This document shows, piece after piece, positions 12,020-63,462 of a stretch of DNA of 64,000 bases. A program made the position numbers and the translations under genes. The notes beneath the pieces were generated by a model, which saw only the letters and a program-made list of their open reading frames with translations, did not search any database and was not told where the DNA came from. Within the stretch, counting starts at the first letter, position 1. Every line of letters starts with the position of its first letter. Origin of the DNA: Kordiimonadales bacterium (lineage in GTDB: Bacteria; Pseudomonadota; Alphaproteobacteria; Sphingomonadales; Kordiimonadaceae); NCBI GenBank assembly GCA_002401685.1, contig NVTU01000042.1:1-64000 (forward strand). Direction: 5' to 3'.

Positions 12020-14464
12020 TTATTCTGCATGCAGCACCATGGCGGGCCGCGCTCGCGCAGCGCGCCAAATATGGAAGAACGTTGTGCCCCACGCCATCAC
12101 GAGCACTAAAGTAAGAGTGCCTATCACCGGGACTAAACCAAGGTCAATCCGTTCGGAAAACCGGGTAATATACTGAGTTTGCAGGAACAAGAATGCCAAG
12201 GGCAGGCCGAGGGCAATCGCCAGCATCACGGGCTTATTGAACTGCCACATTAAAAGCTGGAGTATCCGTGTCAGGGTCGCGCCGTGTACTTTACGGATAC
12301 CAACTTCGAGCCTTTTAGAAGCCGCGAGATAAGCAGTCAGAGCATACAGCCCGGCCGCGGCCATCGTCAGCGTAATCACAGTGATAACAAACAAAATGAT
12401 TTGCTGCTGCCTATACGGGCCGATGGCCACGTCAGCCATCTCTGAAACAGGCCTGACGCGAACTTTAGCTGTCGGATCGATGGTTTGCCATGCATGATTA
12501 AGGGCAGGAAGATCGATCACCGTACCTGCACCGTAGACCACTGTAAGCGCCGTCAGGTATGTTTCGCGCTGAAGATAAAATGCAGGCATCAAGGCTTCAG
12601 TTGGCAGCCCCAAGCGGATATCGGGCACCACACCAATGATTGTACGGGCGGAAGAGATAGGTGCTTCGCCTCCGGTATTGACCATAAAGGAACGTCCAAT
12701 GATGCGCCCCGGATCAGTGAAGCCAAGCAATCTCATTGCCGTTTCATTTATAATATAGTTGTGCGGTAAGCTGTTGATACTGGCCTCCTCAGCGGTGAGA
12801 TAATCCGCATCGCGGTCATCGCTGAAAGCACGCCCGGCCAGCATATCAACGCCGAGCTGATCAAAATACTGGCTATCAATATCAATGAGCTGCACACGGA
12901 GGTTATCTGTGACGCCTTGAATATTGAAAAACGTAAAGGACCCAGCGACATGAAAAGGCGGCAACGCATTACGCGACACTGAGGCAACGCCCGGTAACTT
13001 TCGTACCGTTTCTGCTACCGTTTGCCCCATGCCCGAAGGGCTCATCCCGGTGATAGCCACCATACGGTCTGATTCTATCTGCAGCGTCCGGCTAAGCAGG
13101 TGTTGGTTTTGCAACTGGACAACAATGAAGCCAAATATGAGCGCTGTTACAACAGCAAATTGGGCAGCGACCAGTGTTTTCCGCAGCCCGCCCGCAGTGC
13201 GCGCCAACGTTAAAGTTCTGCTGATGGAAACGTTTTTAAGCAGCCCGGAAAACAGCAGAATTGGATAGATACTGGAGGCAAGCCCGACGCCAAAGGCCGT
13301 TAGAACCAGCATAATAATCAGCTGCGCATCGATCATGTTACCGAAATGCATGTCAAAACCGCTAAGTTCCTGCAGTGCTTGAAATAAATCGAAGGAAGCA
13401 AGGAAAGAGACAGTCAGCGCAATAAAGGCAAAGAGCGTATTCTCGGTGATAAACTGTACAGCGAGATTGAGCCTGCCGCTGCCAAACACACGGCGCAGGC
13501 CAATTTCGCGGGTGCGGTTTATCATCCGGGCACTGGCGAGGCTGATAGCATTCAGAATTGCGATCCCGAGGATAAGGCTTCCAATCAGCCGCACAAGAAG
13601 GATAATACTCACCCCTTCAACCTCAAAACCCGCAACTTGCACGTCAGTGATTGGGCGTGCCCATAGGCCGCTAAAATATTTCTGCCCCTCAGCGCTCATA
13701 TTGGCGCGCAATTGTTCGGACAATCGTTGCTCAAGCAAGGCAATATCAACGCCGTCTTTCGCAACCACATAATTAACGAGGCTACCCTGTGTGGAGCGCC
13801 AATTGTTTTTGACGCTGCGGCCGGACAGTCGAGCATAAAAATCGATGGGGACAAGAAAGTCAAAGGCCGAACGGTTGCCTGGATTGGTCATCAAATGGCT
13901 GTTCATTGCTAAGTCTTTATAGACCCCAACGACGGTGACCGAACGGCGGTTATCGATATTGAACGTTTTACCAATTGGGTTTTCAGCGCCGAAATGGAAA
14001 GCCGTTTCGCGTTCACTCAGAAGCGCAACATCGACTTTACCCGCGAAAGCTTCTCTGCTGCCGCGTATAAGTTCCACGTCAAAAATATCGAGCGTGTCCA
14101 TATCAACTGCCCGGATTTCCAGCGGCAGATACAGTCCGTCCTTCTCGTAAGCAACGGTGGCGGTTATGACACGCCCCGCAAGCTCAATTTCGGGTGCGCG
14201 GTCCCGTAAGCCATCAACAGTACCGGTAAAACTGTGGAAACGCCGCAACCGCCCGGATGGGTGGCCAGGTGCCAGCGCCCGGTTGACTGTATAGATTCTA
14301 TCAACTTTTGAGAAACCGCTTTCGAAGTTCCCCATATAGTGAGCAAACGAAAAAGTCAGCGTGAAGATGGTGAACCCAACCACAAGCCCAATTATATTGA
14401 TAAGAAAACCTGAAAGGTCCCGATGCGCGCTGCGCCAAGCCATCAAAATATAATTTCTAAACAC
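12020..14464 (-). CDS. FtsX/MacB-type ABC transporter permease without adjacent ATPase
   Basis: The 814 aa inner-membrane protein has the double MacB layout. A first TM helix (about residues 18-40) is followed by a periplasmic MacB-like domain (about 45-265) and three TM helices of the first FtsX domain (about 275-420, with RTREIGLRRVFGSG). A second TM helix near 440, a second periplasmic domain and a second FtsX domain (about 690-805, with RLEVGIRKVHGA) complete it. The two ARxxEIGxRK-like coupling segments show both halves are intact. Such permeases export lipoproteins, peptides or drugs or act mechanically on the envelope, and need a cytoplasmic ATPase that is not encoded next to it here. 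The start at 14464 overlaps no neighbour. The substrate is unknown. Confidence 0.88.
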   Translation of the reverse strand: MFRNYILMAWRSAHRDLSGFLINIIGLVVGFTIFTLTFSFAHYMGNFESGFSKVDRIYTVNRALAPGHPSGRLRRFHSFTGTVDGLRDRAPEIELAGRVITATVAYEKDGLYLPLEIRAVDMDTLDIFDVELIRGSREAFAGKVDVALLSERETAFHFGAENPIGKTFNIDNRRSVTVVGVYKDLAMNSHLMTNPGNRSAFDFLVPIDFYARLSGRSVKNNWRSTQGSLVNYVVAKDGVDIALLEQRLSEQLRANMSAEGQKYFSGLWARPITDVQVAGFEVEGVSIILLVRLIGSLILGIAILNAISLASARMINRTREIGLRRVFGSGRLNLAVQFITENTLFAFIALTVSFLASFDLFQALQELSGFDMHFGNMIDAQLIIMLVLTAFGVGLASSIYPILLFSGLLKNVSISRTLTLARTAGGLRKTLVAAQFAVVTALIFGFIVVQLQNQHLLSRTLQIESDRMVAITGMSPSGMGQTVAETVRKLPGVASVSRNALPPFHVAGSFTFFNIQGVTDNLRVQLIDIDSQYFDQLGVDMLAGRAFSDDRDADYLTAEEASINSLPHNYIINETAMRLLGFTDPGRIIGRSFMVNTGGEAPISSARTIIGVVPDIRLGLPTEALMPAFYLQRETYLTALTVVYGAGTVIDLPALNHAWQTIDPTAKVRVRPVSEMADVAIGPYRQQQIILFVITVITLTMAAAGLYALTAYLAASKRLEVGIRKVHGATLTRILQLLMWQFNKPVMLAIALGLPLAFLFLQTQYITRFSERIDLGLVPVIGTLTLVLVMAWGTTFFHIWRAARARPAMVLHAE

Positions 14465-54407: not shown

Positions 54408-54944
54408 ATGAATAAATATTGTCGGTATATAGGTATAGGGGCCGCTTTCTTGGTGTGCTCAGCGACAGCAGCCATCGACTCCGCCGACCCAAAAACAACA
54501 CTAGAAGCAGCCATTAGCTTAAACCTAGCTCGTTTTGTTAGCCGTGCGCAGGAAGCCTCAAACGGCACTGGAAACTTGGTATTCTGCGTAAAAGAGGGGT
54601 CACCAATTGCCCGTGACCTTGCGGTGATGCAAGCGGGCCTCGCCGCCAGCATGCCGCTTACGCTCCGCAACGCTCCAACATATGATGCTTTTTTCACAGG
54701 TTGTGACATCGCTTTTATTCCGTCCTCTGACCAGCATTCAGTAGGCCTTAGCGCACTATCGGCAGCGGGGGTGGTTACCATCAGCGACGCATCTGGTTTC
54801 CTTGAGGCCGGCGGAACCATCATGCTGGTGCAGCGCTCTCAAAAAATTTCCTTTTCTGTAAATATGACATCGCTTAGGAAAACCGGGAAAACTCTGTCTT
54901 CTCATGTCCTAAAACTTGCAACGGAAGTGAGGGCGTTTCCCTAA
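54408..54944 (+). CDS. YfiR/DUF4154-type periplasmic protein
   Basis: The 178 aa protein has a signal peptide (MNKYCRYIGIGAAFLVCSATA) and the YfiR domain pattern: SLNLARFVSRAQ, LVFCVKEGSPIARDL, the C at FFTGCDIAFIPS, GVVTISDASGFLEAGGTIMLVQ, FSVNMTSLRKTG and the C-terminal LKLATEVRAFP. In Pseudomonas YfiR is a periplasmic repressor of the YfiN diguanylate cyclase, and members contain redox-active cysteines. Here it is 11 bases after a barrel gene and overlaps by one base the start of a histidine kinase, so it probably modulates that kinase's sensor. Confidence 0.85.
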   Translation: MNKYCRYIGIGAAFLVCSATAAIDSADPKTTLEAAISLNLARFVSRAQEASNGTGNLVFCVKEGSPIARDLAVMQAGLAASMPLTLRNAPTYDAFFTGCDIAFIPSSDQHSVGLSALSAAGVVTISDASGFLEAGGTIMLVQRSQKISFSVNMTSLRKTGKTLSSHVLKLATEVRAFP

Positions 54945-56449
54945 TGCCTCCTTTCATAAATAACCTACATATCCGCGCTAAACTCACACTGTTGATCACT
55001 GTGGTCTCTGCTGTCGTGATTTCACTCATGTGCATTGCGATCATATTTTATGATCTATCCACCTTCCGCGCAGACCTAAGCTCACAGCAGCGCAATCTCC
55101 TGAAGATTGTTAACAACAACATCTCAGCCGCCATAGTATTTGGTGATCAGGCTGCGGTTGACGAAAACCTGGCCCTCTACAGGTACCAGCCCGATGTTCT
55201 TTCCGTTTCCGTAACAGACGTTTTGAAGCAGGAAATCGCCTCTTACAAAGCCCCGGGACCAAACGCGCCGACCACTATGCCAGATTTACAAATTGCCGAC
55301 ATTTCCACGCTCGATATGAAAACTGCTTTTTATATTCAGGAAACTATCATTCTGGACGGAGAGCTGATCGGCTACTCTCGTGCTCTTATCAGCCTTGATG
55401 CACTCGACCGTAAGGTTTGGCTTTATATTCAGCTTGGTTTGGGCGCTGTCACTGTAACGTTGTTTCTTGCCTTTGTTATTGCCCGGCGGTTTGCCAGAGC
55501 CTTCTCGCAGCCGATTGAGCAATTGGTAAAAACCGCTAAACAGGTCTCCCGGTCAGCAGACTATAGCGTACAAGTTCAGCCTTCTTCTAATGACGAGGTT
55601 GGCGAGCTCACGCGCTATTTCAACCAAATGTTGAACGAAATTAACCGACGCGACAAGGGCCTTTTAAAGCAAAAGCAAACGCTGGAAGACCTTGTTGAGA
55701 AGAAAACAGCAGAGCTTCGTGCAGCCCTGGAAAAATCAGAAACTGCCAGCCGGGCAAAATCTGAGTTTCTCGCCAATATGAGCCACGAACTGCGCACACC
55801 GCTAAATGCGGTTCTCGGCTTCTCGGAAATAATGAAGCAGGAACTTTACGGCCCTCATACCGATCCAAAATATCACGAGTATGCAGGCCTTATTCACCAA
55901 AGCGGCTCGCATCTTCTTAATATTATCAACGACCTACTCGACCTTGCCAAAGTTGAAGCCGGGCAAATGGATCTCGCGATTGAGCCCGCAGATTTCAAGA
56001 AAATCATGACGGAAGTCGCCGACATGATGGGCGTACGGGCGATCCGCAAAAGCCAACACCTGCGGCTTGATATGCCCGACGAATTGCGGACTGTTCACTG
56101 CGATAGCCGCATGATCAAACAAGTGTTCCTCAATCTAGTTTCCAACGCCATAAAATTCACACCGGCGCTAGGCGACATCACTGTCACCGTCCGTGATGCA
56201 TCGCTTGATTTCATCGAAATTCAGGTGGCCGATACCGGTCAAGGCATGACCCCGGAGGAGCTTAAGGTTGCGATGCAGCCCTTCGGCCAGGCACAGTCAA
56301 TCCTCTCCCGCTCGCATGAAGGTACGGGCCTTGGCCTACCGCTTGTGGAACAGTTCCTCACTTTGCACGGTGCAGAGATGCACATAAAATCGGAGCCGGG
56401 CGTTGGCACTACCGTCACAGTGAAATTGCCTATTGCTCAGGCCATTTAA
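54944..56449 (+). CDS. YfiR-linked HAMP sensor histidine kinase
   Basis: The 501 aa kinase has TM1 (about residues 14-36), an extracytoplasmic domain (about 37-150) resembling the CHASE8 sensor of YfiN-type cyclases (QQRNLLKIVNNNISAAIVFGD), TM2 (about 159-181), HAMP (182-235) and HisKA with H281 in ANMSHELRTPLNAVLG. The ATPase domain has LNLVSNAIKFT, ADTGQGM and GTGLGLPL. Its ATG lies in TAATG with the YfiR stop, so the two are tightly coupled. There is no receiver or HPt gene next to it, so its phosphorelay partner is elsewhere. Nucleotide-binding boxes are complete. Confidence 0.9.
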   Translation: MPPFINNLHIRAKLTLLITVVSAVVISLMCIAIIFYDLSTFRADLSSQQRNLLKIVNNNISAAIVFGDQAAVDENLALYRYQPDVLSVSVTDVLKQEIASYKAPGPNAPTTMPDLQIADISTLDMKTAFYIQETIILDGELIGYSRALISLDALDRKVWLYIQLGLGAVTVTLFLAFVIARRFARAFSQPIEQLVKTAKQVSRSADYSVQVQPSSNDEVGELTRYFNQMLNEINRRDKGLLKQKQTLEDLVEKKTAELRAALEKSETASRAKSEFLANMSHELRTPLNAVLGFSEIMKQELYGPHTDPKYHEYAGLIHQSGSHLLNIINDLLDLAKVEAGQMDLAIEPADFKKIMTEVADMMGVRAIRKSQHLRLDMPDELRTVHCDSRMIKQVFLNLVSNAIKFTPALGDITVTVRDASLDFIEIQVADTGQGMTPEELKVAMQPFGQAQSILSRSHEGTGLGLPLVEQFLTLHGAEMHIKSEPGVGTTVTVKLPIAQAI

Positions 56450-56866
56450 AAAAGGGGGGGGCGGTTTGGCCCTAACGGTTCTGCGCCATGCTTTGAGTTA
56501 GCCAACTAATCTGCCGACCGTTCACACCAACATCTCAGTAGATCCAAAGGTAGTGCATCAAACGACATATGCTGCGCGCACTACAGCCGCCCAGAAGCAT
56601 AAATCAACCCCACAGCAGACGTGCTGCCACTAGCTAAAAAAACGCTCAGGGCAAACTTTCCTGCCTCTATTAAGGATTTGGTGAGTTCCATAAGGCACAA
56701 TTTTAAATGGGTGGTGCACAAGCTTACTGCACGCAGTGCTTTCGGTAACCAAACCACCGCAGCCGATCACGTGTCATAGTTCATTATCCGCACACCTGTT
56801 CCTGGGTGGTTTTGGTTGAATCCTTGTAGAGACTTTGAGTTGTTATGGGCGCTACTGGAAAAATAA
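56450..56866. other. Intergenic region with a poly-G tract
   Basis: About 415 bases without a gene. Directly after the kinase stop an A6 run leads to G8 at 56454-56461, and there is no hairpin or terminator. The rest is mixed composition with no supported element, and it separates two kinase genes with different base composition. Confidence 0.4.
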
Positions 56867-58555
56867 ATGGTTAGAGCAACTAAGGCAGAAGCGGGTTCAA
56901 AAACGAACTTGGTACCAGATGTGCTGGATTGTGACGTTTTGTCTGCCTTGAATGTGCTGGCGGCGAGGCTTCCAACGATTAAATCCATCGATGAATTGAC
57001 CAAGTTGGTTGTTTGCGAAGTCGTTGGTGGTTCTGGATTTGAGAACTGCATTTACTATGTGATGAATGCAACAGGGGATGCGCTAAAGCCCGCGGCGTCT
57101 ATTCAGAATAACGTGAAGACAAACATAGATACTCTTGAGCCTGTTTTTTTACAAAACGGAGGGGGTGAGCCCAGTTATGCCTCTCAAACCTCCTCTCGAA
57201 AATCTGAGGTAGACTTTTTTGAGCAAGCTCGGGAAAAGGCCTGTACCGGAGGCAAGGGCTCCCATATCTGTGCCCCGATTGTTCACCATAATAGACTTTT
57301 AGGAACGATTGATTGTTGGCACCAGAATGATAATTTTTTTAATGATCAGCACCTTGATTTTCTTACAAAGATTGCTGTGTTTACGGGCGCTACCCTATCT
57401 GAACTTCGTTCCTATGAACAACTCACCCGTCAGTTTCACATCCTGAACCAAATTGACGAGGCCATGGTCATTATAGGGACGACAGGTCGATTTATTGACT
57501 GTAACGCTGGAGCCACAAGGATGTATGGCTATTCCCGTGAAGAGCTGCTTCAAAAAGGGAGCACCGATATAATCCGGACACCTGGCGGTTGGCACAAGCA
57601 TAAGAATGTTATAATTGACAGCCTCAAAAAGACAGGTGTTTGGCGGGGAAACGTGCAAATCAAGACAGGTCAGGATAAGCTTCTTTCCGTGGCCTTCAGT
57701 GTAACTAATTATTTTGATAAAAGCGGACACCTGGCTGGGACGGTTACTATCGGGCGTGACATCTCGGCTTTGTTGAAATCTCAACAAAAGTTGGAGGCTG
57801 CAAATAAAGAGCTGCAGAGGCGAGAAAAACAGTTACGAGAAACTATCTGTGAAAAAGAAGCGGCAAGGCGCGCACAAGATACATTTATAGCGGCGGCATC
57901 TCATGAATTGCGCACGCCTTTGAACTCCATAGAAGGGTTCTCTGCACTTTTGCTAAAAGCCCAAGACAGTAACCTGCCTGCCGAAAAGATTGTAGAGTTT
58001 GCGGGGTATATTAATCAGGCTAGCAATCAACTAACAGAAACAATCGCCAATATTTTGGATATCTCGTCGGCTTCTGCTTTTACTGAAGATGTCTTGATCG
58101 AGCCTATAAATATAACGCGCCAAATGGAGGCTATTTTCGGACTGGTGGAGCACAAGGCCCATAATAAAAGTCTGCGCATTGTAATCGAAATTGGAGATGA
58201 TTTGCCTCAGGTAATTTTTCATCCTCGGCAATTTATTCGTGTGATATGCAATCTGCTCGACAATGCTATTAAATTCAGCCCCAAAAGAGGCGTAATACAG
58301 GTATCTGTCAGCCGGTGCAGTGTAGGAGTGAATATTACCGTAAGGGATCATGGGCCAGGCATCGCACCTGAGGCCATAAAAAGGGTGTTTGAGCCTTTTT
58401 ATACGAAAGACGCGGATGCCAGATCTAACGGTAAGAATGTTGGATTAGGTTTGTCCTTAGCGAACCAATTTTCCCAAGCTAACGGTGCCCACATGTTAGT
58501 GCGGTCAACGTTGGGCAGCGGGGCAAGTTTCACACTAGTAATACCAGCCAGTTAG
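56867..58555 (+). CDS. Soluble GAF-PAS sensor histidine kinase
   Basis: The 562 aa protein has no TM segment. The GAF domain spans about residues 20-190 (TGGKGSHICAPIVHHNRLLGTID), PAS-PAC about 195-305 (MVIIGTTGRFIDCNAGATRMYGYS), a coiled linker 306-340, HisKA with H346 in AAASHELRTPLNSIEG and the ATPase domain 430-560 (CNLLDNAIKFSP, DHGPGIAPEA, VGLGLSLA). It senses a small molecule or light/redox state in the cytoplasm. The codons and AT content differ from the preceding kinase gene. No cognate receiver is adjacent. The start is unclear because no strong ribosome site is seen. Confidence 0.9.
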   Translation: MVRATKAEAGSKTNLVPDVLDCDVLSALNVLAARLPTIKSIDELTKLVVCEVVGGSGFENCIYYVMNATGDALKPAASIQNNVKTNIDTLEPVFLQNGGGEPSYASQTSSRKSEVDFFEQAREKACTGGKGSHICAPIVHHNRLLGTIDCWHQNDNFFNDQHLDFLTKIAVFTGATLSELRSYEQLTRQFHILNQIDEAMVIIGTTGRFIDCNAGATRMYGYSREELLQKGSTDIIRTPGGWHKHKNVIIDSLKKTGVWRGNVQIKTGQDKLLSVAFSVTNYFDKSGHLAGTVTIGRDISALLKSQQKLEAANKELQRREKQLRETICEKEAARRAQDTFIAAASHELRTPLNSIEGFSALLLKAQDSNLPAEKIVEFAGYINQASNQLTETIANILDISSASAFTEDVLIEPINITRQMEAIFGLVEHKAHNKSLRIVIEIGDDLPQVIFHPRQFIRVICNLLDNAIKFSPKRGVIQVSVSRCSVGVNITVRDHGPGIAPEAIKRVFEPFYTKDADARSNGKNVGLGLSLANQFSQANGAHMLVRSTLGSGASFTLVIPAS

Positions 58556-59422: not shown

Positions 59423-61075
59423 TTACTTTCTCGCTCTCCCGTCAACGGCATTTTTGAGAGCATCCATCAGAATTCTGTCCTCGGCAGAGTGCGATCTCCA
59501 GCCAACCATATCCTGTAACATCAGGCCAGCAATGACTTTAAGTTCGGGGCGGAAATCCGAAATAATGTCCTCGCTTGGAAAACTTGAATTGCTAACCGAA
59601 AGACCCGTCATGTGCAGATGCTCGGCCATGAACCGATGAGGATGAAGCTTTGTATTTTTGCTGAAGAACCGATCATCAAAAGTACCGTCTAATATTGATA
59701 GGGCCGACTGCCAGACCGCTGCGTATTTATCCATATTTTGCGACGTCGAAATCGCAATTTGATCACCGCAGCCAAGGAGAAAAAGCTTATCAACTATAAT
59801 CTGGGTTTCATAATAGTGGGGCCCGTGAATGTCAAAAGCAGGAAACAGACAGTCAGGGCGCGCTCGAATAACAAGATCATACTCTTTACTTCGACGGGTC
59901 TCGGCAGCGGTCTTCATCTCATTAGCTTTGAAAAGACCATAATACATTTTGAGCTGATTGAGATGCGCTGATGTAGGTGCGACCAAATGGGCTTTTTTGC
60001 CCCAATACTGTGCTTCAAAATCTTCCTCACTGGAAATCAGAAGCTCGGCAGTAGGATAGGTACGCTTAACATCTTCAACCTGAAGCGAATTACGCTCAAT
60101 TTTACGCAAATGGGCTACGGCCGTTGGAAAGAGACCCGGGAAGGGTTCCCCAAGATATCGATACGGAAATTTATGCTCAAACTCGTCCGGCAAAAATCGT
60201 TTGATAGACTGAAAACCACTGGTCTTAAAACCGCGACGATCCCAGGTTGAAATAAAGATGTCCGTGTCATATTTTTCTGTGAGATTGGTAATCACAGACT
60301 GGGCGCATGCTTCGAAGTTGCGCATTTGACCTGACAAACACAGAGCAATTCGAATGGGTTGACCGCGAGGCTTCTTTTGTTCCCGCTTCAATACCGCAGC
60401 ATTTTCTTCGGCGCGTGTCTGGTGTTCACCAAGTAATGTGTGGGTGGCCCGAATATTGTGATAGTCGTTGCGATTGATCTGCGAGCCGGAATTGATCGCC
60501 TGCCTAAGCAGATCAACTTTATCCGCGGTCCTGTCTTGAGCATCCAAACATCTCAATAGTAAGCTAAACGTCTCAGCGGTTCGGTTCAGTGCGTAATTCT
60601 GCCGAGCCAGATTTAGCGCCTTGTCGTACTGTTTCAGCCTGATGGCTCCGGTGATCAAGCCTCTGATTCTGGGGTGAGACCGATCAATAGTGCCTGGAAT
60701 TTGGTCCACGACCAATTTTAGTATCTTCATGTCAGACAACTGCGCAGCCACGAAGGAACCAGAGCAAAGTAACATAATATCCGTGGTGCCCTTTGCCAGG
60801 TACGGCAAAATCAAATCACGTGCCCAGTCGGCCTGACCCGACAGCAAGAGAACCCAGGCCAGTTCAGCTATTTGAATTTCTTCATATTCCGTGGTGCGCA
60901 GCCGTATTGCGTCCAGGGCAGTTCGGGCTTCTTCCAAACGTGCTAACTTTAAAAGCGCAATGAACCGGCCTGCCAGCTCTTTTGACTGCAGGTCTGCGAC
61001 TTTGGGATCGGTCCTTAATAGTAGGCTGCGCAACTCTTTATCAGATGCGTTGAATATTTCGGCGTCAAAGGTCAT
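59423..61075 (-). CDS. TPR-containing glycan-related protein
   Basis: The 550 aa product has a helical repeat N-terminal half (residues about 1-250) of TPR type and a C-terminal domain starting at IALCLSGQMRNFEAC and continuing YDTDIFISTWDRRG. That motif pattern is found in a group of capsule and lipopolysaccharide cluster proteins thought to be glycosyltransferase-like. A conserved LVIRARPDCLFPAF acidic/arginine stretch follows around residue 430. ATG 61075 overlaps the stop of the nucleotidyltransferase gene by ATGA, so the two are coupled. Cytoplasmic, no TM seen. It probably transfers or positions a sugar for surface glycan. Confidence 0.75.
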   Translation of the reverse strand: MTFDAEIFNASDKELRSLLLRTDPKVADLQSKELAGRFIALLKLARLEEARTALDAIRLRTTEYEEIQIAELAWVLLLSGQADWARDLILPYLAKGTTDIMLLCSGSFVAAQLSDMKILKLVVDQIPGTIDRSHPRIRGLITGAIRLKQYDKALNLARQNYALNRTAETFSLLLRCLDAQDRTADKVDLLRQAINSGSQINRNDYHNIRATHTLLGEHQTRAEENAAVLKREQKKPRGQPIRIALCLSGQMRNFEACAQSVITNLTEKYDTDIFISTWDRRGFKTSGFQSIKRFLPDEFEHKFPYRYLGEPFPGLFPTAVAHLRKIERNSLQVEDVKRTYPTAELLISSEEDFEAQYWGKKAHLVAPTSAHLNQLKMYYGLFKANEMKTAAETRRSKEYDLVIRARPDCLFPAFDIHGPHYYETQIIVDKLFLLGCGDQIAISTSQNMDKYAAVWQSALSILDGTFDDRFFSKNTKLHPHRFMAEHLHMTGLSVSNSSFPSEDIISDFRPELKVIAGLMLQDMVGWRSHSAEDRILMDALKNAVDGRARK

Positions 61076-61830
61076 CGGGTTTTCTGGCTGGTGATAATAG
61101 ATGGTGGTGGTGTGCAACGAAGGAATTCTTCATATTCGCTTGGGACGCCACAAAAAGTAACGGCATCTTGTTCTATTACGGTGAAATGAATTTGGGCCTT
61201 TGCGTGAATTAAATGATTATAGATCGGTGCCACAAAAAGCTCAGCATCGCCCTGCGCGCGCACTTCGGCGAGAAAAGCTTTTTCAAACAACTGATACGTT
61301 CTGAAATAATATAAACCAGTCGAGCAAAGGTTAGAAATACGCCTTTTTTCTGCAGTTTCCTTGACCCTGGTTGATCCGAAGCTGGCAGGCAAAACAAAAG
61401 ACCAATGATCGCCCTCACCCTCAAAAACTTCCAGATACCCATCCCAATTCTCAACAACCGATGGCCTTGGGAGTTGGAACCCAGGCCTGAATGTATCAAT
61501 GTTGAAAATCAGGAGCGTTTCTTCCGCTTCAACATTTGCTTGCTGCAGCCCCAGCATTACAGTCTCCGCTTGTCCTCGGGTCGGTTGTTCGAGCTTAACA
61601 AAAACGCAATTTGAAATTCCGAGCTTGGCGGTCTCTTCTCTAACAAAAGTCCCCGCACCTTCAACCTCCCGGTAAATAAAAAGAAATTTCTCCGATTGAA
61701 AGTACTTCTCGAAACTGTTGACTGAATGGGCAAAAAGGCTCTTGCCATGTGCCTCAAGCATATATTTAGGGCCGTTGTAGCCCGCGTCTGTAAACCGCTT
61801 GCTCAATCCGGCCATTGGGATAACAATCAC
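61072..61830 (-). CDS. Sugar-phosphate nucleotidyltransferase-like protein
   Basis: The 252 aa protein starts with the nucleotidyltransferase fold signature IPMAGLSKRFTDAGYNGPKYML (G-x-x-x-R-F and P-K) and has an acidic metal site (LIFNIDTFRPG). Such enzymes join a sugar phosphate, or phosphocholine or phosphoethanolamine, to an NTP. It is sandwiched between a nucleotidyltransferase-kinase fusion 15 bases upstream and a TPR-glycan gene overlapped by four bases. It starts at GTG 61830, with AAAGGAG upstream. The sugar and nucleotide are not predictable from sequence alone. Confidence 0.82.
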   Translation of the reverse strand: MIVIPMAGLSKRFTDAGYNGPKYMLEAHGKSLFAHSVNSFEKYFQSEKFLFIYREVEGAGTFVREETAKLGISNCVFVKLEQPTRGQAETVMLGLQQANVEAEETLLIFNIDTFRPGFQLPRPSVVENWDGYLEVFEGEGDHWSFVLPASFGSTRVKETAEKRRISNLCSTGLYYFRTYQLFEKAFLAEVRAQGDAELFVAPIYNHLIHAKAQIHFTVIEQDAVTFCGVPSEYEEFLRCTPPPSIITSQKTR

Positions 61831-61845
61831 AAGATACTCCTTTGC

Positions 61846-63462
61846 CTAGTCAACATGGGACGTGAAAAGCCGGGCGGCATTCGCCAAGAATGCTTTTTGC
61901 CTCAAGGGTTTGTCGTAGTGAAGCGGCAGCATCGAAAGGAATAATAAGACGCTCATTGCATTGAATGTCGGGTCGTCGCCGCTGTATCTGCCAAACGAAT
62001 GTTGCAGAAACGTAGAACATATGGTTGACGTTTCACCGGTAACCATAAGCGAAAAGTCGAAGTTGTAATCATCGTGTTGACTATATTTGTAACGCCCTGC
62101 AACGATAAAATCATAAAATCCAACAATGGAATGATGGAGTTTGCCTACGTCGTATCTCGTATCCCCGAATAGATTTGGCTGCCCTTTGGTGATAAATCCC
62201 CTAGGATCGATGACCTTGATGCTTTGCGATCGAAAATCAAAGAATACATTGGAGAAGCAAAAGTCACCATGCATAATGCCGACGTTTGACGGCTGACATT
62301 TTTGTATCAAACTGGCAGAGACTTCCGCAATTTCTCTGAGAGGTGGCAGTGCCCGGCCACCCAATGTGAGCTCTGCATCCAAGTCAAAGCCTGTTTGCAA
62401 CTGGTATTCCTCCAACCGTTTTAACGTTTTTCCCAGATATAAATTATCCGGTTGCCGGTGGTCGAAGTCTTGACTGTTATAGGACTGGCAATCGCTCAAA
62501 AAGCGACTGCATGCCAGTATTATTTGATCCCAAATAGCCCCTTCAAGATTGCCAAATACAAAAAGATCACTGAGCGTCATGAGGTTCAGGTTTTCAATCG
62601 CATACCCCTTCAGCGTGCCGTTCTTATCCGGCCCTAAAAAAGTGGGAGCATATATCCGCATCCGCTCAGGCAGGTTATCGAACCAATTAACTTCTGCCGC
62701 CATTTTCTCAGAATCCGGCGAGGATTTTATGACTGTTTTGGTATCATTTTGAATTTCATTGAAGGACCGCTGGGTAGGGATTGTTGTTCTGGAATGGAAA
62801 TATGTATGGAGGTGGCCACAGTTGCGCCAATCAGCCAGAATCCGCAATTTTAGGCGCTGAGTTTTATGATATTCACTCAGAGCTCCAATAAAATCTTCAC
62901 CCGCTTCTTCAAGGGATTTCAAGAATAACGCAGCGCGTGAAAATGAATAGTATCCACTGACGACTTGGCTCGATGACTGAAACCTTGGTGACGATGCCGA
63001 GCGCACTGTAGTGTTTGGTAGAAACTGCAAACCGCAATTTTCACCTTCACTGATCACCGTCCACCGATAAGAACTCTTGGAAGTTGCCACTGATATGATG
63101 TCTGTTTCGTCGCCGGGCAACCAGTCGAATAAAGTATCGCCGCGCAAAATATGTATTGGCTCGTCGTACTCTCCAAGAATATTCAGAACGTGCAAGGCAC
63201 TCTGGCCCATCGAAACCTTGTCAGGTAGTGCAATAACCTCAATGCCGAGGTCGGCCATGATTTTTTTGTCGTGCTCGGGAATTATATAAGATTTTGGCAA
63301 CGTCAATGTCATGCTGAAATTGCAACGTTTAGCCAATTCAAATTGAAACTCATATAGCCGCTTATTCCCTAGAGGAAGAAAGCTGGGCGGCAACTTGCCA
63401 ATTTCGGCCTGCATTTCAGGATCGCAGTACGCCGCTGAGGTGACAATTAGTCTTTCGCCCAT
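61846..63462 (-). CDS. Nucleotidyltransferase-kinase fusion protein (surface glycan)
   Basis: The 538 aa product has two parts. Residues about 1-235 resemble a sugar nucleotidyltransferase (FLPLGNKRLYEFQFELA, LRGDTLFDWLPGDE), though the usual G-x-x-x-R-x loop is not obvious. Residues about 260-538 are an aminoglycoside-phosphotransferase/choline-kinase-like domain with the catalytic loop HGDFCFSNVFFD (H398, D400, N405) and the metal D419 in VIDPRG. A kinase fused to a nucleotidyltransferase would phosphorylate and then activate a sugar or alcohol in one polypeptide. It is the first gene of a three-gene minus operon. The start at 63462 has only a weak ribosome site. Confidence 0.72.
   Translation of the reverse strand: MGERLIVTSAAYCDPEMQAEIGKLPPSFLPLGNKRLYEFQFELAKRCNFSMTLTLPKSYIIPEHDKKIMADLGIEVIALPDKVSMGQSALHVLNILGEYDEPIHILRGDTLFDWLPGDETDIISVATSKSSYRWTVISEGENCGLQFLPNTTVRSASSPRFQSSSQVVSGYYSFSRAALFLKSLEEAGEDFIGALSEYHKTQRLKLRILADWRNCGHLHTYFHSRTTIPTQRSFNEIQNDTKTVIKSSPDSEKMAAEVNWFDNLPERMRIYAPTFLGPDKNGTLKGYAIENLNLMTLSDLFVFGNLEGAIWDQIILACSRFLSDCQSYNSQDFDHRQPDNLYLGKTLKRLEEYQLQTGFDLDAELTLGGRALPPLREIAEVSASLIQKCQPSNVGIMHGDFCFSNVFFDFRSQSIKVIDPRGFITKGQPNLFGDTRYDVGKLHHSIVGFYDFIVAGRYKYSQHDDYNFDFSLMVTGETSTICSTFLQHSFGRYSGDDPTFNAMSVLLFLSMLPLHYDKPLRQKAFLANAARLFTSHVD

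Follow-up and report, generated by a model that had tools for sequence, protein, structure and literature searches.

The closest described counterpart of the three-gene operon analysed here (genes F, N2 and G3) is the kfoE region of the Escherichia coli K4 capsule locus. The operon lies on the minus strand of a 64,000-nucleotide stretch of a Kordiimonadales genome (positions 1 to 64,000 of contig NVTU01000042.1, assembly GCA_002401685.1; hereafter called the window). According to the accounts given in PMC7925653 and PMC7429809, deletion of kfoE in K4 yields non-fructosylated chondroitin. KfoE was published as a 'fructosyltransferase', a name tied to this deletion phenotype (primary paper Liu 2014, as cited in PMC7925653). 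Fructose branches are mentioned for the capsules of E. coli K4 (PMC7429809) and for the Pasteurella multocida B/E and Haemophilus influenzae e capsules (PMC10627249). The K4-type locus has the same fusion as the window, the same N2 neighbour, annotated there as a family-2 glycosyltransferase, and a G3-type domain. It differs by the HAD protein that adjoins KfoE, whereas the window operon has no HAD and sits outside a capsule cluster. Fructose is also a constituent of the Vibrio cholerae lipopolysaccharide core and of the K11 capsule.

Other described systems share parts of this layout. The MupP-AmgK-MurU pathway likewise employs a HAD phosphatase, an anomeric kinase of the APH fold and a nucleotidyltransferase to make a nucleotide sugar, and AmgK is a precedent for an APH-fold anomeric kinase. 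However, this pathway handles another sugar and involves no fusion, and the window genome has a separate MurU-like gene. In the LicCA fusion, a nucleotidyltransferase is likewise followed by a kinase in a single polypeptide, but the nucleotidyltransferase half of F lacks the catalytic Lys and an intact enzyme is encoded next door. The mannose-activation pair GMPPA/GMPPB, to which the top Foldseek entry of F (7d72) belongs, comprises the inactive GMPPA; an inactive nucleotidyltransferase may regulate its active paralogue. In F, by contrast, the inactive nucleotidyltransferase shares a polypeptide with a kinase.

On balance, we lean towards reading the window operon as a KfoE-family operon in which F would be an anomeric sugar kinase, most likely acting on fructose, N2 would make the nucleotide sugar, and G3 would transfer the sugar to a surface polysaccharide. 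A first-pass annotation, made from the DNA sequence only, had found no known pathway that matched the operon exactly. The family is in fact known genetically as kfoE, although its biochemistry appears to have been mis-assigned.

A KfoE-family operon in a new setting

The three minus-strand open reading frames (ORFs) are F (61846-63462, 538 residues), N2 (61072-61830, 252 residues) and G3 (59423-61075, 550 residues). The sequence bears out the operon layout and coordinates given in the first-pass annotation, F and N2 being 15 bases apart and N2 and G3 sharing an ATGA. The ATG at 61075 overlaps the N2 stop codon, and we therefore took G3 as 59423-61075 rather than as the 564-residue, TTG-initiated form of the ORF list. 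The features of the operon are as follows.

62749..63462, minus strand: N-terminal half of F (residues 1-238), nucleotidyltransferase fold without the catalytic Lys or a basic loop residue, probable pseudo-enzyme (VIA-align, hhalign, catalytic positions)
61846..62748, minus strand: C-terminal half of F (residues 239-538), APH-type kinase with K246, E257, HGD(400)xxxxN405 and D419 (Pfam APH, Foldseek, conserved residues)
61831..61845, minus strand: F-N2 spacer of 15 bases (the F stop ends at 61846, N2 starts at 61830)
61072..61830, minus strand: N2, intact sugar-phosphate nucleotidyltransferase with AGxxxRF...GYxxPK and NIDT (4evw_A match, conserved residues)
61072..61075, minus strand: overlap of the N2 stop and the G3 start, ATGA (sequence)
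60368..61075, minus strand: N-terminal region of G3 (residues 1-236), no significant TPR match (best TPR_19, at E 0.82; low-confidence model)
59423..60367, minus strand: C-terminal domain of G3 (residues 237-550), putative transferase resembling DUF7796, found repeatedly next to the module (motifs SGQxR, TW, RxRPD and D; weak profile match)

The link to KfoE comes from the primer arms used to delete kfoE, as given in PMC7429809. In an E. coli K4-type locus (L038), they align with 0 mismatches to bases 12250-12300 and 13869-13918, one arm in the end of the HAD gene and the other in the start of the N2 gene, thus bracketing the F homologue of that locus (12300-13868). This match at both ends places F, by its sequence, in the KfoE family. 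In a two-sequence comparison, window F is 34.6% identical to the L038 homologue across 534 aligned columns (E 5e-113), and the figure for the N2 proteins of the two loci is 45.8%. A nucleotide-sugar dehydrogenase, which a K4 locus should possess, is also encoded in L038. The window operon thus represents the KfoE family in a new context, in which the HAD gene is lacking, no capsule cluster surrounds the operon and the third gene is of the G3 type.

A second connection with fructose is provided by the locus of an E. coli ST69 strain (L037), which carries HAD, F and N2 genes and a G3-type domain. In the data of PMC13171598, CC69 carries the K52 locus more often than any other (163/413). The kpsM and kpsT genes of L037 are apart, in line with the rearrangement reported for K52, among others, in PMC13171606, and because of these two points the untyped L037 is likely to be the K52 locus. 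According to a title cited in PMC12096258, K52 contains beta-D-fructofuranosyl groups. The word 'fructose' is absent from the main text of both E. coli capsule-locus papers, PMC13171606 and PMC13171598.

A probable kinase fused to a probable pseudo-nucleotidyltransferase

Structure prediction of the two halves of F, which the first-pass annotation had suggested as a check, gave an AlphaFold2 model with a predicted local distance difference test (pLDDT) score of 89.7. A Foldseek search with this model retrieved both APH(3') and nucleotidyltransferase chains, with MurU chains also among its matches. The C-terminal half matches Pfam APH above the cut-off (E 2.5e-5). Its fold assignment comes from Foldseek and sequence, the VIA-align rows being all taken by the N-terminal half. 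The residues K246, E257, H398, D400, N405 and D419 are each present in 31/31 aligned relatives (motif HGDFCFSN), and the signature HGDFCFSN..DPRG is near-invariant among them, so that the intact HGD...N and D residues noted at first pass are shared by these relatives. No glycosyltransferase family was found for F among the matches listed in the Pfam and NCBIfam scans. F thus looks like a kinase of the APH fold.

These conservation counts are based on 31 rows, 30 of which include the N-terminal half; they leave out L003, which is a duplicate, L001 and L002, which are pieces of the window, and loci L034-L041. The remaining row, L033, has the kinase half only, is located beside a Tn3 transposase gene and may be truncated. 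At this locus, on a Legionella sainthelensi plasmid (L033:8968-9957), the module has a kinase-only F of 329 residues adjoining a Tn3-family transposase.

The N-terminal half of F has the nucleotidyltransferase fold: VIA-align superposed residues 1-238 of the model on E. coli GlmU (1hv9_B) with a Z score of 21.4 and a root-mean-square deviation of 2.8 over 220 residues. The alignment of its profile with that of N2 by hhalign (probability 94.7, E 6e-8) makes it, at the sequence level, a paralogue of N2. The site of the PK-motif Lys, position 27 of F, is occupied by S, A, C or T in every one of the 30 members that possess this half. In the loop that should carry the catalytic Arg, window F has no basic residue at positions 5-22, and across columns 5-28 no column is basic in more than 7 of the 30 members. 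Five distant members (L024-L028) have Lys or Arg at columns 14 and/or 16 of this loop, which may represent an Arg equivalent. The metal-binding Asp109 is kept in 25/30 members and Asp214 in 29/30, the sole exception being the window copy, with N. Because the catalytic Lys is missing in all 30 members, the N-terminal half is probably a dead nucleotidyltransferase. Hence, of the nucleotidyltransferase-kinase fusion described at first pass, both folds are retained, but the nucleotidyltransferase half as an enzyme is not. We also considered F as an active bifunctional nucleotidyltransferase-kinase and rejected this candidate, as the catalytic Lys is missing.

The neighbouring protein N2 has the complete set of motifs. 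It matches the solved protein 4evw_A, which we take to be a Vibrio cholerae protein, with an E value of 4e-74 over 242 residues, and its R12, K22 and D112 are found in 31/31 aligned relatives. It was unmatched to NCBIfam NF045761 (MurU) among the matches listed at E up to 1.

Distribution of the F-N2-HAD module

We collected relatives of the operon from 23 GTDB contigs, 5 of 7 plasmid records, genomes G021 and G028 and 7 E. coli clusters. This yielded 38 distinct loci including the window (G001 duplicates L006; L004/L005, identical to L042/L043, and L036, identical to L030, were counted once). The loci were located via F or via HAD-F-N2 DNA, and the count of F itself is therefore uninformative. 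F and N2 are neighbours in all 38, which span several phyla and differ in gene order. In 33 of the 38 loci, the pair is accompanied by an adjacent HAD protein of approximately 120-150 residues, interrupted in L012 by the end of the contig. An adjacent HAD is lacking in five loci, namely the window, L007, L011 (for which only 817 bases are available upstream), L042 and L043. No such HAD is present anywhere in the window or in the next 11 kb. A HAD query did not find the protein in the L011 genome, and its two matches in the L007 genome (E 0.2-0.3) are chance matches.

Of 18 other genomes of the same genus, 1 has F, and at class level F was identified (E 1e-30) in 7 genomes out of 385, window genome included. 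The distribution of the module is therefore patchy, and the module has probably been transferred horizontally.

Among 5,426 E. coli genomes, 126 have some match to the HAD-F-N2 segment of O20. In 5 genomes, the match spans 80% or more of the segment, and a large share of the weak matches correspond to the HAD end only. The E. coli sites of the module are capsule loci and the O20 and O78 O-antigen clusters. In the latter two, the HAD-F-N2 segments (L034:8854-11566 for O20 and L035:8001-10728 for O78) are annotated as HAD hydrolase, hypothetical proteins and family-2 glycosyltransferase. In Vibrio rumoiensis (L013), the module is located near a WavE gene, and we take the neighbouring ORFs to be heptosyltransferase- and KdtA-like. 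In Campylobacter jejuni IA3902, the adjacent CJSA_1353-1355 of 240, 507 and 132 residues, listed as 'Unknown' in Table 4 of PMC7901785, correspond to N2, F and HAD in size, the only feature compared. The gene-neighbourhood survey proposed at first pass thus revealed a cassette that recurs in capsule and O-antigen clusters. The E. coli ST131 plasmid pMB9366_2 (L030/L036) harbours a capsule locus with the module, and the same plasmid also has phage-like genes for a terminase and a C1 repressor.

The third gene

Residues 237-550 of G3 carry the motifs SGQxR, TW and RxRPD, followed by a later D, and have a weak match to DUF7796, under the cut-off. A G3-type domain is present in 12 of the 38 loci, including the window and L038. 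A direct phmmer search with G3 retrieved 10 of the other 11, from E 2e-18 (L037) down to 1e-8 (L017), with L038 at 3e-4, and the L009 protein was found by the iterated profile only. Proteins of the WavE family are encoded in L013, L031, L032, L033, L035, L040 and L041; in three of these loci (L031, L040, L041), a G3-type protein accompanies the WavE protein. Both the G3-type and the WavE proteins at module loci would be transferases, the role of G3 being putative. What speaks for the description of the third protein as glycosyltransferase-like in the first-pass annotation is the weak DUF7796 match together with the genomic association with the module, and we regard it as unconfirmed.

The TPR part of that description was likewise not confirmed, as TPR_19 reached only E 0.82. 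Profile matches of G3 to engineered TPR proteins of the PDB are repeat artefacts, with no single significant stretch, and a search of PDB chains with the G3 profile gave no match at E up to 0.1. G3 was also considered as a WavE protein and rejected: there was no Pfam WavE match at E up to 1, and the profile comparison covered 42 columns with a probability of 4.9% (E 0.008).

Proposed pathway and alternatives

A role of the operon in sugar activation is well supported. We infer fructose as the substrate in the Kordiimonadales organism, and likewise the reaction steps, namely their order, the nucleotide used and the roles of the dead domain and of G3. Where present, the HAD protein would remove the phosphate at C6 of fructose-6-phosphate, either ahead of the kinase or following it; another phosphatase might replace it in the window organism. 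F would phosphorylate the anomeric carbon, most likely C2 of D-fructofuranose. The reverse order, with the kinase acting first via a 2,6-bisphosphate, would be equally possible. From the sugar phosphate, N2 would then form a nucleotide sugar, a nucleoside diphosphate-fructofuranose, with the dead nucleotidyltransferase domain of F probably docking or regulating N2, and the C-terminal domain of G3 would transfer the sugar to a surface polysaccharide. The succession proposed at first pass, of a kinase, activation by a neighbour and transfer to a surface glycan, is in agreement with the recurrence of the cassette in capsule and O-antigen clusters.

Because of its domains, KfoE appears to be a kinase that makes the donor rather than a fructosyltransferase, and the published biochemistry appears to be mis-assigned. 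This reassignment of KfoE from transferase to kinase is the point most worth following. If KfoE is a kinase, three or four purified proteins would suffice for a direct test of the fructose donor question, and genes of capsule and O-antigen clusters now labelled, for instance, 'aminoglycoside phosphotransferase', 'hypothetical protein' or 'glycosyltransferase family 2' would need re-annotation. We found no nucleotide-activated fructose donor for bacterial surface glycans in the titles and abstracts of the literature searched; some texts mention UDP-fructose or GDP-fructose. A broader proposal, which we put forward only tentatively, is that of a dedicated route to nucleotide-activated fructofuranose. 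It would combine an anomeric ketose kinase, fused to a dead nucleotidyltransferase that scaffolds its active paralogue, with a G3/DUF7796-like transferase, and would supply a fructose donor for capsules and surface glycans in many bacteria, with KfoE as the kinase and with acid-labile fructose perhaps overlooked in O-antigens such as O78 and O20.

A number of observations weigh against the assignment of fructose-activating functions to the operon. F is only 35% identical to KfoE, and its sugar may differ. The HAD query did not find the protein in the window genome (G000, 77% complete), whereas it gave E 1e-46 in G001, nor did it find it in G021 (a single contig, 100% complete) or in G028 (99%), both of which have F and N2. 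The module is found in the E. coli O78 and O20 clusters, and we know of no fructose in the published O-antigens of these two serogroups. The same biochemistry might thus be applied to another sugar, such as ribofuranose, xylulose, sorbose or heptose, in keeping with the low identity to KfoE, the missing HAD partner and the O78 and O20 sites. We nevertheless regard this as rather unlikely, since the only genetic evidence found for a member of the family points to fructose and since the HGDFCFSN..DPRG signature is almost invariant. Several other genes of L038 are broken, the deletion of kfoE could be polar on N2, and the pLDDT of the G3 model, 45.7, is too low for a fold search. Finally, C. jejuni HS1 has fructose branches, and the 11 capsule genes listed for it in PMC7901785, including that for the fructose-transferase HS1.08, comprise none that is kinase-like as F; therefore, not all capsular fructose needs the module.

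The loss of fructose upon deletion of kfoE would also be explained if the published label were correct, with KfoE and F themselves as fructosyltransferases. This is improbable given the nucleotidyltransferase fold, the APH kinase with intact residues and the lack of a glycosyltransferase family among the matches listed, and loss of the donor accounts equally well for a fructose-less mutant. The first-pass annotation had raised phosphocholine-like chemistry as an option. A LicA/LicC-like choline or ethanolamine kinase with a cytidylyltransferase would show the order of activities and the kind of fusion of Treponema LicCA. We consider it very improbable, as no Choline_kinase or LicC family was among the matches listed in the Pfam and NCBIfam scans (a missing match not being proof), as the HAD partner of 33 of the 38 loci would have no obvious role, and as the KfoE phenotype, the loss of K4 fructose, concerns another compound. 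A peptidoglycan-recycling pair equivalent to AmgK-MurU is hardly credible, even though the combination of HAD, APH kinase and nucleotidyltransferase follows the MupP-AmgK-MurU logic and Foldseek matched F to MurU chains. A separate MurU-like protein with intact motifs is encoded elsewhere in the window genome, and the 3 further genomes of the genus that were searched have one too, a weak argument since all 4 matches are under the cut-off. That of the window genome scores 139 bits on NF045761, for a cut-off of 250 bits, and 14/14 control genomes likewise match below it. Moreover, the scarcity of F in the genus (1 of 18 other genomes) and the location of its relatives in capsule and O-antigen clusters speak against peptidoglycan recycling.

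Genomic setting of the operon

The window genome is 77% complete, in 63 contigs. The GC content of the operon is 46.7%, compared with a mean of 50.8% (standard deviation 2.2) for 300 windows of the same size across the 64 kb, 5.7% of which have lower values. Promoter scanning gave 11 sites versus 7.1 (standard deviation 2.7) in shuffled sequences, and terminator scanning 6 versus 5.4 (standard deviation 2.4). No capsule cluster was found among the neighbouring ORFs of at least 150 residues. Elsewhere, the genome encodes a Capsule_synth (KpsC-type) protein and a Wzy_C (O-antigen-ligase-type) protein, which are possible acceptor systems for the transferred sugar. A MurU-like nucleotidyltransferase gene at L056:2060-3273 has no APH kinase (AmgK) gene between it and the adjoining ORFs, which presumably correspond to TsaE and AddB.

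On one flank of the operon, the nearest ORF of at least 150 residues codes for a sensor histidine kinase; positions 54944-58555 of the window harbour two co-directional sensor histidine kinases, one CHASE8-HAMP and the other GAF-PAS. On the other flank, past the window end, the nearest ORFs of that size code in a row for a 300-residue protein, an IMS-family protein and a DnaE-type polymerase (L002:1970-7599), an arrangement that we take to resemble an imuA-imuB-dnaE2 mutagenesis cassette.

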